Assembly (NCBI RefSeq): GCF_900091495.1
Contig: NZ_LT607413.1
Coordinates: forward strand, 2,914,001 to 2,978,000
Direction: 5' to 3'
Source: Micromonospora echinospora
GTDB lineage: Bacteria > Actinomycetota > Actinomycetes > Mycobacteriales > Micromonosporaceae
Length of the DNA stretch: 64,000 nucleotides
This document shows positions 27,508 to 32,351 of the stretch, piece by piece. The notes beneath the pieces are model-generated. The model did no database searches, was not told the DNA's origin, and worked only from the letters and a program-made list of their open reading frames with translations. Made by a program: the position numbers and the translations under genes. Each line of letters opens with the position of its first letter. Position 1 is the stretch's first letter.

Positions 27508-29019
27508 TCAGGACCGGGTGGCGAAGCGCAGCATGTTCCAGGAGACGGCGGGCAGGCGTACGGTGCACCGGCCGCCGTCGACGGTGGGGGTGGTGCTCTC
27601 GCGGGGCGTGACCCGGTCGGGCTCGGCCTCGGTGTTGCTCGCCGTCGGGTCCTCCCCGGCGGCGAGGGTCAGGTGGGATCGGCCGGAGGGCCGGGGCAGG
27701 CCGCGCAGGTCGATCTCCAGCGGCAGGTCGTCGCTGCCCCGGTTGACCGCGAAGACGGTCAGCTCGCCCCGCTCCTCGTCGTGCACCGCCACGGTGTCCA
27801 GCACGGGCACGTCGCCGTAGCGGGCGGTGGGGTAGGTCGGGGAGACCGGTTCGGTACGCAGCACCGTGCCGCGGGCGTACCGGGCGGTGAGCGCGAACGG
27901 GTGGAAGATGCTCTGCCGCCAGGCCGGGCCGCCGGTGCGGGTCCGGATCGGGGCGATCACGTTGGCCAACTGCGCCTGGCAGGCCACGCCGACCCGGTCG
28001 GCGTGGCGGAGCAGGGTGACCAGCAGGTCGCCGACGACCACCGCGTCGACCGCGGTGAAGGTGTCCTCGATCAGCGCCGGGGCCTCCACCCATCCGCGCC
28101 GGTCCAGGTCGGCCTGGAGGCGGGACTGGTACCAGACGTTCCACTCGTCGAAGGAGACCTTGAGCTTGCGCGAGTGGCGCAGCTTGGCCGCCACGTGGTC
28201 GGCGGTGGCGACCACCTCGCGGATGAAGTTGTCCATGTCGACCGCCGAGGCCAGGATGCTGGCCTGGTCGCCGTCGGACGGGTCGTAGTAGGTGTGCGCG
28301 GAGATGTAGTCGACGTGCTCGTAGGTGTGCTCCAGCACGGTCGCCTCCCAGGAGGCGAAGGTGGGCATCCCCCGGTTGGAGCTGCCGCAGGCGACCAGGC
28401 TGATCGAGGGGTCGACCAGCTTCATCGCGCGGGCGGTCTCGGCGGCCAGCCGGCCGTACTCGTCGGCGGTCTTGTGGCCGACCTGCCAGGGGCCGTCCAG
28501 CTCGTTGCCGAGGCACCAGAGCCGGATTCCGTACGGCTGCTCCGCGCCGTGCTTGCGGCGCAGGTCGGACCATGCGGTCCCGCCCGGGTGGTTGGTGTAC
28601 TCCAGCAGGTCGCAGGCCTCCTGGACGCCACGGGTGCCGAGGTTGACCGCCATCATCGGCTCCACCTGCGCCCGTGCCGCCCACGTCATGAACTCGTCCA
28701 GGCCGAAGGCGTTGGTCTCGATGCTCTTCCAGGCCAGGTCGAGCCGGCGCGGCCGGTCGCCGGCCGGGCCGATGCCGTCCTCCCAGCGGTAGCCGGAGAC
28801 GAAGTTGCCGCCGGGGTAGCGGACCACCGAGACGCCGAGTTCGCGGGTGAGTTCCAGGACGTCGGCGCGGAACCCGTCGGCGTCGGCCCCGGGGTGGCCC
28901 GGCTCGAAGACGCCCCCGTAGACGCAGCGCCCCATGTGCTCGACGAACGATCCGAAGAGTCGGCGGTCGGACGCGCCGATCGCGAAGGCGGGATCGATCG
29001 TCACCTGAGCGGTCCGCAC
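27508..29019 (-). CDS. GH51 alpha-L-arabinofuranosidase
   Basis: 503 aa, cytoplasmic (no signal peptide), the usual size for the family. The acid/base is E173 in WCLGNELDGPW, and the nucleophile is E292 in KVSFDEWNVWY. VVRYPGGNFVSGYRWEDGIGP is the substrate-site signature. It releases arabinose from oligosaccharides imported by the downstream ABC transporter. GTG at 29019 lies nine bases after AAAGG; a GTG at 29028 is too close. It is first in an operon running to the GH43 gene and is divergent from a LacI repressor; their shared region carries two operators. Confidence 0.94.
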   Translation of the reverse strand: MRTAQVTIDPAFAIGASDRRLFGSFVEHMGRCVYGGVFEPGHPGADADGFRADVLELTRELGVSVVRYPGGNFVSGYRWEDGIGPAGDRPRRLDLAWKSIETNAFGLDEFMTWAARAQVEPMMAVNLGTRGVQEACDLLEYTNHPGGTAWSDLRRKHGAEQPYGIRLWCLGNELDGPWQVGHKTADEYGRLAAETARAMKLVDPSISLVACGSSNRGMPTFASWEATVLEHTYEHVDYISAHTYYDPSDGDQASILASAVDMDNFIREVVATADHVAAKLRHSRKLKVSFDEWNVWYQSRLQADLDRRGWVEAPALIEDTFTAVDAVVVGDLLVTLLRHADRVGVACQAQLANVIAPIRTRTGGPAWRQSIFHPFALTARYARGTVLRTEPVSPTYPTARYGDVPVLDTVAVHDEERGELTVFAVNRGSDDLPLEIDLRGLPRPSGRSHLTLAAGEDPTASNTEAEPDRVTPRESTTPTVDGGRCTVRLPAVSWNMLRFATRS

Positions 29020-29071
29020 GGCGGCCACCTTTCCTCGTCGCCTGACTTTCCTGATCACCTGACTGCGGGCA

Positions 29072-29085
29072 GTGATCGTGGTCAC
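29072..29085. promoter_or_regulatory. Crp-like dyad GTGA-N6-TCAC
   Basis: AGTGATCGTGGTCACT carries the perfect Crp core GTGA-N6-TCAC at 29072-29085, 53 bases upstream of the GH51 start, between that start and the LacI operators. A cAMP-receptor-type activator or repressor input is inferred; the flanking bases (A and T) differ from the full TGTGA/TCACA consensus. Confidence 0.45.
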
Positions 29086-29101
29086 TCGCCTGCCCGACTT
29101 T

Positions 29102-29124
29102 CTACAACGTTGTAGGCAACGTTG
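29102..29124. promoter_or_regulatory. Two tandem LacI-family operators
   Basis: A perfect 14-bp palindrome CTACAACGTTGTAG (29102-29115) is followed one base later by CAACGTTG (29117-29124), both centred on the CG step typical of LacI-family sites. They lie midway between the divergent GH51 operon and lacI. A weak promoter for lacI (TTGTAA, 16-base spacer, TAAAGT at 29144-29149) overlaps the second site, so binding should repress both directions until the sugar inducer is present. Confidence 0.8.
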
Positions 29125-29181
29125 TAAAGGGCTGGTGGCACGGTAAAGTGCCCCGCATAACGGGGTCGGGAGGGTGACGAG

Positions 29182-30189
29182 GTGCGGCACAGGCTCAAGG
29201 ACGTGGCCGAGAGGGCCGGGGTGTCCGTCAAGACCGTATCGAACGTCGTGAACGGATACCAGCATGTCCGACCAGCCACCCGGGCGCGAGTCGAACAGGC
29301 GATCGCGGAGCTGAACTACCGGCCGAACCTCTCCGCCCGCAACCTGCGCAAGGGGCGTACCGGCGTGATCGCCCTCGCCGTGCCCGAGCTGGACATCCCG
29401 TACTTCGCCGAGCTGGCCCGGCACGTCGTGGTCGCCGCCGCCGAGCAGGGCTGGACGGTGCTGATCGACCAGACCGGCGGCAGCCGGGAGCAGGAACGGG
29501 TGGCCGCCAGCGGCATCGGCGACCACCTCATCGACGGGTTGATCTTCAGCCCGTTGGCGCTCACCGCCGAGGACCTGACCGGCCTGGACGGCACCCCGAT
29601 GGTGCTGCTCGGTGAACGGGTCGACCACGGGCCGGCGGACCACGTGATGATCGACAACGTGGCCGCCGCCCGGCAGATCACCGCCCATCTGGCGGGCCTC
29701 GGCCGCCGCCGGATCGCCGCGATCGGCGCACAGCGCACCGCCGAGGGGGCCAGCGCCCGGCTGCGCCTCGCCGGCTACCGGGCCGCCCTCACCGACGCCG
29801 GCATCGGGTACGACGAGCGCCTGGTCGCCCCCGCGCCGGTGTGGCACCGCGCGGACGGGGCCGCCGCCATGCGCGACCTGCTCGCCTCCGGGGAGCGCCC
29901 CGACGCGGTCTTCTGTTTCAACGACACGCTCGCCCTGGGCGCGCTGCGCGTCCTGCATGAGTACGGCCTGCGGGCGCCCGAGGACGTCGCGGTCGCCGGC
30001 TTCGACGACATCGAGGACGGGCGGTTCTCCATCCCCACCCTGAGCACCATCGCGCCGGACAAGGAGCGCATCGGCCGGCTCGCGGTGGAGCTGCTGGTCG
30101 GCCGGATCGAGGGCGACCGGGACGCCCCGCCCCGGACCCTTACCGCGCCGTACCGTCTCGAACTCCGCGAGAGCACCCTCGGCCGCTGA
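29182..30189 (+). CDS. LacI-family transcriptional repressor of the arabinoside locus
   Basis: 335 aa. The N-terminal HTH reads RLKDVAERAGVSVKTVSNVVNGY, followed by the hinge helix (NLSARNLRKGRTG). The periplasmic-binding-protein-like effector domain includes IAALAVPELDIPYFAEL-type sequence, DDVAVAGFDDI-type EDVAVAGFDDIEDGRF and the C-terminal LTAPYRLELRESTLGR. GTG start at 29182. It is divergent from the GH51-ABC-GH43 operon and shares its operator region, so it most likely represses that operon and itself. An arabinose-derived inducer is an inference. Confidence 0.92.
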   Translation: MRHRLKDVAERAGVSVKTVSNVVNGYQHVRPATRARVEQAIAELNYRPNLSARNLRKGRTGVIALAVPELDIPYFAELARHVVVAAAEQGWTVLIDQTGGSREQERVAASGIGDHLIDGLIFSPLALTAEDLTGLDGTPMVLLGERVDHGPADHVMIDNVAAARQITAHLAGLGRRRIAAIGAQRTAEGASARLRLAGYRAALTDAGIGYDERLVAPAPVWHRADGAAAMRDLLASGERPDAVFCFNDTLALGALRVLHEYGLRAPEDVAVAGFDDIEDGRFSIPTLSTIAPDKERIGRLAVELLVGRIEGDRDAPPRTLTAPYRLELRESTLGR

Positions 30190-30471
30190 CCGCCTCCGCG
30201 AGAGCATCCAAGAGCACCCGCGTCCGGTGCCTGCAGGGGCCCCCTGTTACCGCTTTCTGCCGAGCAGGGGACCCCTGCCGGCACCCCACGCGGGTGCCGG
30301 CAGCCGCCGCAGCGAACCCGCCGACGCGGGTGCCGGCGGCCCGGACCCAGCATCCACATGCGACAGTCCTTGGTGGCGTGACGGCGACACCGATCGGGGG
30401 ATGGGCGCGGTGTCGTCCCGCCGCCACGATGTACGCGCGCGCCGCGCGCTGTCATGACACCTGGGGGCGAG
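30190..30471. other. Intergenic region downstream of lacI with palindromes
   Basis: 282 bases between lacI and the acidic-protein gene. It contains palindrome copy 2 (30235-30278), directly followed by a second hairpin (CCGGCACCC at 30278-30286 with 30292-30300) and another copy of the GCGGGTGCCGG string at about 30327. The promoter of the downstream pair should lie in 30340-30460, but no clear consensus was seen. Confidence 0.55.
30235..30278. repeat. 44-bp palindromic element, copy 2
   Basis: Reverse-orientation copy of the element at 23157-23200, identical at 40 of 44 positions, including the 20-base string GCAGAAAGCGGTAACAGGGG read on the minus strand. It lies 45 bases past the lacI stop and can act as its terminator. 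Confidence 0.85.
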
Positions 30472-30924
30472 ATGAGCACCGATTCGAGCTGGGGCGACTA
30501 CCTGTCCACCGACACGTCCGTCGCGGACACCGGCATCGACGCGTTCGCGGCGACCGTCGAGCCGATCATGCCGGTGGTCGAGCCGGTGTTGCCCGAGCCG
30601 GTGCTGGACGTGGTCGACAGCGAGATCGCCGGGGCCGCGGCCGACCAGGACTGGTCCGACTGGCACGCGGCCAGCGGCGACCAGTGGGCCGAGTCGGCGC
30701 AGGACTGGGTCGACTACGCCAACGAGAACCTGGCCGCCGGCAACCTCGAAGCCGCCGAGAGCGGAATGGCGTACGCCGCCGACCACGCCCACATCGCCGA
30801 CAGCAACTACGACGTGTCCCTCGACTACTCCACCCAGGCGGTCACCCACCTGGACACGGCGGTGGCGGAGGTCGCCCCGTACGACACGTACGACGCCGGC
30901 ACGAGCTTCGACATCGCGGAATGA
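30472..30924 (+). CDS. Unrecognised 150-aa acidic protein without Lys or Arg
   Basis: No family is recognised. The protein has 21 Asp and 10 Glu and not one Lys or Arg, hence a net charge near -31, and no Cys. It has no signal peptide or membrane segment. The first 50 residues are Pro/Val-rich (VVEPVLPEPVLDVVDSE); the middle is Trp-rich and repetitive (DQDWSDWHAASGDQWAESAQDW); the rest is Ala/Asp/Tyr-rich and probably helical. ATG at 30472 has GGGGGCGAG immediately upstream; an ATG at 30454 in frame lacks a site. Its stop overlaps the next ATG (ATGA), so the two proteins are made together and may interact. Confidence 0.75.
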   Translation: MSTDSSWGDYLSTDTSVADTGIDAFAATVEPIMPVVEPVLPEPVLDVVDSEIAGAAADQDWSDWHAASGDQWAESAQDWVDYANENLAAGNLEAAESGMAYAADHAHIADSNYDVSLDYSTQAVTHLDTAVAEVAPYDTYDAGTSFDIAE

Positions 30925-32351
30925 GCTGGGCGGCAGACACCGACCCCGGGGCGCGGCCCGACCCGGCCGTGACCGCCACCGAGGCGGGTCGGCTGCTGGC
31001 CGGCGCGGAACGCCGGATCGCCGCGCCGCCGAGCGTGGCCCGGCAGCACCTGCTCCGCGTCCTCCGGGATCTCTCCTTCGAGCTGCGCACCGAGCAGCTC
31101 AGCCTGCTGGAGGCGGTACGCGGCTCGAAGCTGGGCGGGGTCACCCTCTCCGCCGCCCGGGTGCCGGTCGCGCTGCGGATCGGCCTCGAAGCCGACGGCC
31201 CCGGCTGTCGGGTCGGCGTCCTGCTGGCCGACCGCTGGGCCGGCCGGGTGGGCCGGAACTGGGGCCTCACCTCGGCCTACGTGCAGCTCTTCGAGTCCGT
31301 CCTCGGCGCGGTCGACGACGTGCTCGGCCGCCTCGACCCGGCCGCTGCCACCACCTTCCCCGGTTGGTGGCGACAGACCGGCCCCGGTGACGTGGCGATC
31401 ATGCAGAACGCGGCGAGCCTCGCCAACCGGGCCGGGGCGATGCTCTCCCGGCACGCGTCCCGCCTGCTCGACGGGGACTCCCCGGCCCAGCGCCGGGCGG
31501 CGGTCAGCCGGTCCGGCACCGACACCTTCGTCTTCGAGACCCCGCAGACCGTCGCGGAGGTGCCGGCGGAACTTGCCGACGGCATGCTGATGGTCGGCGC
31601 GCTGATCGCCGGCAGGCCCGGGGACATGCCACCGAACCTGGTGGCCCAGGTCCAGTCGCTGGTGTTCCGGGTCGAGGAGCACCTCGCCTCGGTCCCGCCG
31701 GGCTCGGCCCCGGCCGCCCGGTTCACCGTCGAACCGGCGGACGTGCCGGTGGTGACCTTCCTGCACCAGCAGGCCCGGCTCCGGAGCCTGCTGCCGGTGC
31801 GGAACCTGCGGACCTGCACCACCTGCCGGCTGGAGAAGGTGACCAATCCCGATCGGGAGCGGTTGCAGGAGCGCACCCGGCGGACCCGGGACCTGGCCAC
31901 CAGCCTCAGCGCGGTGGTCACCCCGTACGTGCTGGCCGGCCGGTTGGCGCAGCTCAACAACAAGGGGCCCGACTTCGCCTGCCCGCGCTGCCAGGGCATG
32001 GACGCCGACGAGACGGTGGTGACGTTCTGCCAGCGATGCGGCGACCGGCGGGCCGAGACGGCTCTGCGTACCTGCTCGAAGTGCCGGTTCGACTTCCGCA
32101 GCCTGGTCGCCGGGGACCGGGTCTGGCAACCCCGCCAGACACCCCCGGCCACCCCGCCTCCGGTTACCGCGGCCCCGCCACCCGCACCCCCGCCGCAGCC
32201 GATGCCGGCGCCGGCACCCGCTCCGGGCTGGGGTACGGCAGCCCCGCCGCAGCCGGCACCTGCCCCGACGTCGGCACCTGCCCCGGCGTCGGCGGCGCCC
32301 CGGCCGGTGGACCCGGAGGCGGAGCAGTGGCCCCGTCCTCCGGGCGGTTAG
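30921..32351 (+). CDS. Unrecognised protein with four CxxC motifs and a Pro/Ala-rich tail
   Basis: 476 aa, no recognised family. Residues about 10-285 look like a folded helical domain without membrane segments. Four CxxC pairs follow at 299-302, 354-357, 370-373 and 385-388 (CTTC, CPRC, CQRC, CSKC), which would make two zinc ribbons; between the first and second pair lies a charged helix (DRERLQERTRRTRDLA). Residues 406-476 are a Pro/Ala low-complexity tail. It is translated from an ATG overlapping the stop of the acidic gene. A zinc-stabilised scaffold or nucleic-acid-binding partner for the acidic protein is possible but unproven. Confidence 0.75.
   Translation: MSWAADTDPGARPDPAVTATEAGRLLAGAERRIAAPPSVARQHLLRVLRDLSFELRTEQLSLLEAVRGSKLGGVTLSAARVPVALRIGLEADGPGCRVGVLLADRWAGRVGRNWGLTSAYVQLFESVLGAVDDVLGRLDPAAATTFPGWWRQTGPGDVAIMQNAASLANRAGAMLSRHASRLLDGDSPAQRRAAVSRSGTDTFVFETPQTVAEVPAELADGMLMVGALIAGRPGDMPPNLVAQVQSLVFRVEEHLASVPPGSAPAARFTVEPADVPVVTFLHQQARLRSLLPVRNLRTCTTCRLEKVTNPDRERLQERTRRTRDLATSLSAVVTPYVLAGRLAQLNNKGPDFACPRCQGMDADETVVTFCQRCGDRRAETALRTCSKCRFDFRSLVAGDRVWQPRQTPPATPPPVTAAPPPAPPPQPMPAPAPAPGWGTAAPPQPAPAPTSAPAPASAAPRPVDPEAEQWPRPPGG

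Follow-up and report, generated by a model that had tools for sequence, protein, structure and literature searches.

A lysine- and arginine-free acidic protein paired with a zinc-ribbon protein in Micromonospora echinospora, with relatives in the Chloroflexi

The gene pair and its conservation

The subject of this analysis is a pair of adjacent genes in a 64,000-nucleotide stretch of the Micromonospora echinospora contig NZ_LT607413.1 (positions 2,914,001 to 2,978,000 of the forward strand), which we call the window. The first open reading frame (ORF), ORF1, encodes an acidic protein that lacks both lysine and arginine; the second, ORF2, encodes a multi-domain protein with zinc-ribbon motifs. 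An earlier reading of this DNA, made from the sequence alone, had reported that the stop codon of ORF1 overlaps the start codon of ORF2, and that the ORF2 product of 476 residues has four CxxC pairs and a Pro-rich tail. Rereading the DNA bears out both statements, the two genes sharing an ATGA. The features of the locus are collected in Table 1.

Table 1. Features of the ORF1-ORF2 locus, in window coordinates.
Feature	Position	Strand	Remarks
ORF1, acidic protein	30472..30924	+	150 aa; homologues, selection ratios
ORF1 N-terminus, disordered, residues 1-36	30472..30579	+	begins with a conserved short Asp/Trp/Tyr-containing motif
ORF1 helix 1, residues 44-88	30601..30735	+	AlphaFold2 block means of pLDDT (predicted local distance difference test) 92-99
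ORF1 helix 2, residues 92-137	30745..30882	+	AlphaFold2 block means of pLDDT 83-99
ORF1 C-terminus, disordered, residues 142-150	30895..30921	+	AlphaFold2 prediction, alignment
ATGA, shared by the ORF1 stop codon and the ORF2 start codon	30921..30924	+	
ORF2, multi-domain protein with zinc-ribbon motifs	30921..32351	+	476 aa
ORF2 N-terminal alpha/beta domain, residues 23-142	30987..31346	+	helix-grip/SRPBCC-like fold, predicted
ORF2 zinc-ribbon region with helical insert, residues 276-405	31746..32135	+	
ORF2 CxxC 1, C299/C302	31815..31826	+	invariant
ORF2 CxxC 2, C354/C357	31980..31991	+	invariant
ORF2 CxxC 3, C370/C373	32028..32039	+	invariant
ORF2 CxxC 4, C385/C388	32073..32084	+	invariant
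ORF2 Pro-rich tail	32136..32348	+	DUF2510 or additional CxxC motifs here in some relatives

ORF1 is a real gene, on the evidence of the selection acting upon it and of its homologues in another phylum. Its ratios of nonsynonymous to synonymous change against four relatives are 0.54, 0.56, 0.72 and 0.79, and all four thus point to a protein-coding gene on which purifying selection acts mildly. The single comparison made for ORF2 gives 0.37. A search with the ORF1 sequence by itself returned 18 proteins, the query's own among them, while a profile built from both phyla, for which scoring was confined to the 7994 candidates with most words in common, returned at least 44, overlapping the first set.

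The ORF1-ORF2 pair is a unit of conservation that is patchily distributed. The ORF1 profile matches 18 of 354 Micromonosporaceae genomes (11 Micromonospora, with 6 and 1 from two other genera), and in every one of the 18 ORF2 lies directly downstream on the same strand. The junctions printed for 16 of these loci are ATGA in 14 cases, GTGA in one and TGATG in one. Within a sample of 150 genomes of the family, ORF1 as a single query found 9 and residues 21-402 of ORF2 found 15; the latter add to those nine G005, whose copy is diverged and lacks ORF1, G103, which has a fragment, and four genomes matching in the zinc-ribbon region only. In a Chloroflexi class, ORF2 has matches in 14 of 177 genomes. 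Ten of these are strong (expectation value E of 1e-112 or better), three of which supplied queries and first contigs; the other four, at E 1.0e-4 to 3.8e-4, are excluded from the count of ten. ORF1 is found upstream of ORF2 in eight of the ten, with a weak match in one of them (G590), and in the three Chloroflexi contigs examined the genes are separated by 12-20 bases and do not overlap. The sequence-only reading had held that its proposal would fail if the genes were not co-conserved in relatives; in both phyla the relatives mostly keep them together.

A separate scan of contigs finds the pair adjacent at seven of eight loci (four Micromonospora, three Chloroflexi). It is not independent of the genome counts, since the three Chloroflexi contigs lie in G541-G543 and the four Micromonospora contigs give match figures identical to those of four of the 18 family genomes. 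In the wider Actinomycetes-type class seven of 394 genomes were matched, with at most four candidates scored per genome, so that weak relatives may be missed; two of these are strong and belong to Micromonospora, and five at E 3.4e-4 to 7.3e-4 were taken as chance.

Three copies depart from the usual form. At L010 (G034) the ORF1 frame is without its usual stop and runs into the ORF2 region, which could be decay or a sequencing error. The match at L030 (G103) is limited to the late part of ORF2 and has a TAG in the matched frame, the mark of a decayed or truncated copy. G541 has a second ORF1 match at a contig end, covering only the first 35 residues and identical there to the main copy.

Composition and predicted structure of the two proteins

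ORF1 has a net charge of -31. It had been described as having 31 acidic and no basic residues in 150; there are indeed 31 Asp plus Glu, with no Lys and no Arg, but four His are present, and 'no basic' is true only if these are left aside. The absence of Lys and Arg had also been called striking for this genome, with which the window agrees. Among the 48 ORFs that a simple GC-frame rule defines in the 64 kb, Lys plus Arg averages 10.6%, and ORF1 alone has none, the next lowest value being 4.7%. For independent and identically distributed residues the chance of finding neither in 150 positions is 4.8e-8. The absence of Lys is less striking taken alone, because Lys-less stretches are common in proteasome-bearing, pupylating actinobacteria. 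Figures given in PMC10665810 are that lysine deserts covering at least half of the sequence occur in 25.7% (Mycobacterium tuberculosis) and 35.4% (Streptomyces coelicolor) of filtered proteins, and the trend described there concerns Lys, not Arg. It is the absence of Arg that is the unusual part of the composition of ORF1.

The depletion is a property of the family, and holds in both phyla. Of the 7737 residues in the 46 members counted, fragments and copies with doubtful starts included, 6 are Lys and 48 are Arg. Lys is missing from 40 of the 46, both residues are missing from 25, and 42 have no more than two of them together. Three Chloroflexi copies from named contigs, of 186-190 residues each, have neither. 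To go without Lys and Arg over 150-190 residues, and nearly to keep this across two phyla, is very unusual. A control is provided by the alignment positions at which the reference row has neither residue. Of the substitution types there, Lys and Arg account for 6 of 341 in the 12 two-phylum rows of ORF1 and for 137 of 1483 in the 26 rows of ORF2.

ORF1 is predicted to form a long, acidic two-helix hairpin with disordered ends, in which the turn (residues 89-91) is AGN. Three tryptophans of helix 1, at positions 61, 64 and 72, are invariant across the 12 rows of the two-phylum alignment. Many homologues have a longer C-terminal tail that is repeated and rich in Tyr and Asp. The C-terminal Glu is invariant in 15 of 15 aligned rows and is encoded by the GAA of GGAATGA (window 30916-30924); since the codon sits in this sequence, the overlapping ORF2 start may account for part of its conservation.

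The eight Cys of ORF2 are invariant in both a 26-row and a 52-row alignment, and their pairing fits the ligands of a zinc ribbon. Residues 276-405 are net positive (+2 to +11) in all 26 aligned sequences, and the net charge of the whole protein is +8. Inspection of the alignment by eye reveals no catalytic-looking set of invariant residues other than the Cys. ORF2 is predicted to be an adaptor or sensor, made of a helix-grip-like domain, zinc ribbons and a flexible Pro-rich tail.

Relation to known families

The sequence-only reading recognized neither family and would have counted membership of a characterized one as a refutation; no characterized family rises above cut-off in the libraries compared. 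Neither protein of the window does so in Pfam or NCBIfam. Four of the five proteins given to PADLOC have no match, and P0067 has one weak match in its Pro/Ala-rich tail (E 0.0017). PHROGs gives nothing for two ORF1 proteins, and only E 0.2-0.33 for three ORF2 relatives, ORF2 itself among these. The ORF1 profile matches no PDB sequence, and ORF2 has just weak ribbon or unrelated matches there (best E 0.015). Pfam matches seen in single rows of the ORF1 alignments, at E 0.068-0.43 with Imm51 the best (0.068), were taken as chance. Our literature searches found no description of this pair, nor of a comparable Lys/Arg-free protein. In the fold searches the absence of a family excludes nothing.

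Among the closest known systems are generic zinc ribbons with paired CxxC (Pfam Zn_ribbon_15, DZR and L37e, and the NCBIfam rubrerythrin-like family). Zn_ribbon_15 is matched by 18 of 26 ORF2 relatives (best E 3.3e-5) and the rubrerythrin-like family by 14 of 26 (best E 0.00039). The window ORF2 differs in lying above no cut-off, and in the spacing of its first two CxxC pairs, which are separated by about 50 residues that include helices. The N-terminal domain is predicted to resemble SRPBCC/helix-grip proteins (Rv2186c, CoxG-type, plant PR-10), KA1 domains and the N-domain of spermine synthase in fold searches, at some 9-12% identity and with no Pfam match for the domain.

The zinc-ribbon region has been reused in another architecture, as judged from sequence comparison. 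Four loci in another Micromonosporaceae genus (L031-L034, in G061, G094, G039 and G080) encode zinc-ribbon/DUF2510-type proteins beside a gene that by eye is infB-like, with 30-34% identity to the ORF2 zinc-ribbon region (E 1.1e-10 to 4.0e-8). By eye, a ribbon is followed by a PH-like stretch, a Pro-rich part and a C-terminal DUF2510-like motif. They differ from ORF2 in that the match spans only about residues 256-393, with no helix-grip N-terminal domain and no adjoining ORF1-like gene seen by eye, and their genomes are outside the 18 with ORF1. The helical hairpin, the helix-grip-like domain and the zinc ribbon of the pair are all familiar parts, but neither their combination nor the Lys/Arg-free partner is described in the libraries or literature searched. 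A two-gene family can now be defined by its distribution, its clear boundaries, its invariant residues and the folds predicted for it.

Possible functions and genomic settings of the pair

We are highly confident that ORF1 and ORF2 are partners, and they probably work together. The explanation that we favor, tentatively, is a two-gene module for a dedicated protein pair, in which ORF2 would be the core component and ORF1 an acidic modulator that gates it. ORF1 would bind ORF2, probably at or near the zinc-ribbon region, which is basic. The surface of ORF1, negative throughout, would shield ORF2 from anionic partners (acidic lipid or nucleic acid) until it was released by a ligand or by an event at the membrane. 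The exclusion of Lys and Arg would keep the surface of ORF1 from binding polyanions itself. In favor of this module are the adjacency of the genes in both phyla, their conserved overlap in the Micromonosporaceae, the lack of a third gene family common to their neighborhoods, the scarcity of Lys and Arg in ORF1, the net positive zinc-ribbon region, the invariant Cys and the predicted folds. A shielding or decoy role is proposed for ORF1 because the charge imbalance of the pair argues against simple neutralization; our confidence in this mechanism by itself is low to moderate. It is possible, if rather doubtful, that the whole is an undescribed two-protein regulatory system of actinobacteria and Chloroflexi, in which the hairpin, free of Lys and Arg and carrying a disordered tail rich in Tyr and Asp, serves as a built-in polyanion decoy, gating the ligand-binding or nucleic-acid/lipid-binding of a helix-grip/zinc-ribbon adaptor. 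Since the Lys/Arg-free ORF1 goes with one partner gene, a direct test is possible of whether that partner needs a surface free of positive charge.

A number of observations weigh against a gated module of this kind. The charges are unbalanced (-31 against +8), 5 of 26 relatives have a net negative charge over ORF2 residues 1-402, and the charge of the zinc-ribbon region is just +2 to +5 in four relatives that we take to be of the Chloroflexi type. These values weaken the charge part of the explanation, and we lowered its odds slightly for them. From the charge, the absence of Lys and Arg and the coupling of the genes, the sequence-only reading had suggested a stoichiometric complex, nucleic-acid mimicry or a chaperone/inhibitor pair. 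Of this the partner relationship is well supported by the co-conservation and the lack of a characterized family; mimicry and a chaperone/inhibitor pair are candidate mechanisms, and a 1:1 charge-neutralizing complex is unlikely. The helix-grip resemblance of ORF2 is one of fold only, and a shared fold shows no function. Among near relatives (15 rows each), Lys/Arg substitution types number 2 of 209 in ORF1 against 8 of 307 in ORF2, which is no clear difference; exclusion from ORF1 thus stands out over long distances only. A mutational null for gain of Lys or Arg in ORF1 (2 seen against 21.6 expected, and 6 against 37.6) was set aside as too generous, because ORF2 itself shows so few over short distances. 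Two Chloroflexi ORF2 copies, in G578 (L072) and G583 (L073), have no ORF1 upstream, the diverged ORF2 of G005 has none adjacent, and the eighth locus of the contig scan (L019) matches ORF2 at residues 220-393 only, with no ORF1 match. From G005 and the two Chloroflexi genomes it follows that ORF2 is able to persist without an adjacent ORF1. In G583 the place upstream of ORF2 is occupied by a gene that by eye resembles a major facilitator superfamily (MFS) transporter.

The charge of ORF1 could be read differently, as that of a nucleic-acid (polyanion) mimic that blocks a third protein, one binding DNA or RNA, while ORF2 acts as its helper. Such a net charge in 150 residues with no Lys or Arg would suit a mimic, as would zinc ribbons in the partner. 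The long disordered ends of ORF1, however, do not suit the compact form of known mimics of this kind. ORF1 has no family in PADLOC or PHROGs and no relative in a scan of viral contigs that was pattern-limited, phage and plasmid records not having been searched with it. We regard this role as unlikely.

That the depletion merely follows the lysine-desert trend of proteasome-bearing actinobacteria, and carries no functional information, is a still less likely explanation. The prevalence of deserts in the two species cited above is in its favor, as is the lack of a clear difference between ORF1 and ORF2 in gain of Lys or Arg among Micromonospora-type rows. Against it, Arg is scarce in the family along with Lys, and the depletion holds in the Chloroflexi contig copies.

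A toxin-antitoxin or inhibitor pair, with ORF1 neutralizing a harmful ORF2, would be consistent with the order of the genes, a small acidic one first and overlapping a larger one, and with the patchy distribution (18/354, 10/177). Yet ORF2 lacks catalytic-looking invariant residues beyond its Cys, occurs without ORF1 upstream in the genomes noted above, and is not found in 72,556 plasmid records. We consider such a pair improbable.

A type VII (ESX) role, in which ORF1 would be secreted as a hairpin protein like EspC and WXG100 and ORF2 would escort it in the cytoplasm, is very unlikely. Such substrates are small helical hairpins, as ORF1 is predicted to be, and by eye ORF1 has no signal peptide. 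The UniRef name of one homologue begins 'Excreted virulence factor E', which we ourselves read as EspC; it is unsupported, as current Pfam does not reproduce it on a set including that protein. No EspC or WXG100 Pfam match is found in 15 + 12 rows of the ORF1 family at E<=5, nor any PF10824 match in the M. echinospora genome at E<=0.01, a search that is positive in one of 14 control genomes. Type VII substrates have a C-terminal YxxxD/E (PMC3935865). The window ORF1 has one YxxxD (residues 137-141), but the motif is not conserved: it occurs in the last 60 residues of 14 of 46 family members, a count at the bottom of what 200 shuffles give (14-32, with a mean of 22.6). W-x-G, which WXG100 proteins have between their two helices, occurs anywhere in only four of the 46, and the AGN turn of the window ORF1 does not contain it. 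The assignment is rejected on profile and motif, the ESX machinery not having been searched for. Least probable of all is that ORF1 is a PspA/ESCRT-III-like hairpin polymerizing on membranes, with ORF2 as adaptor.

A mobile, phage or plasmid origin of the pair was likewise rejected: ORF2 has no match in the plasmid records or in phage and viral-contig collections, and ORF1 none in viral contigs, the viral scans being pattern-limited and plasmids and phages not searched with ORF1. No convincing promoter motif common to the regions upstream of ORF1 was found by eye. In 23 neighborhoods, annotated by a crude ORF rule and some of them cut by contig ends, a third gene family occurs in at most six, and those reaching six come from a single group of related genomes. 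Within the Micromonosporaceae the pair is found in about five different genomic settings. In the window it is preceded (27508-30207) by what by eye are an arabinofuranosidase-like gene and a divergent LacI-type regulator, and Micromonospora haikouensis (L012) has neighbors in common with the window on both sides of the pair.
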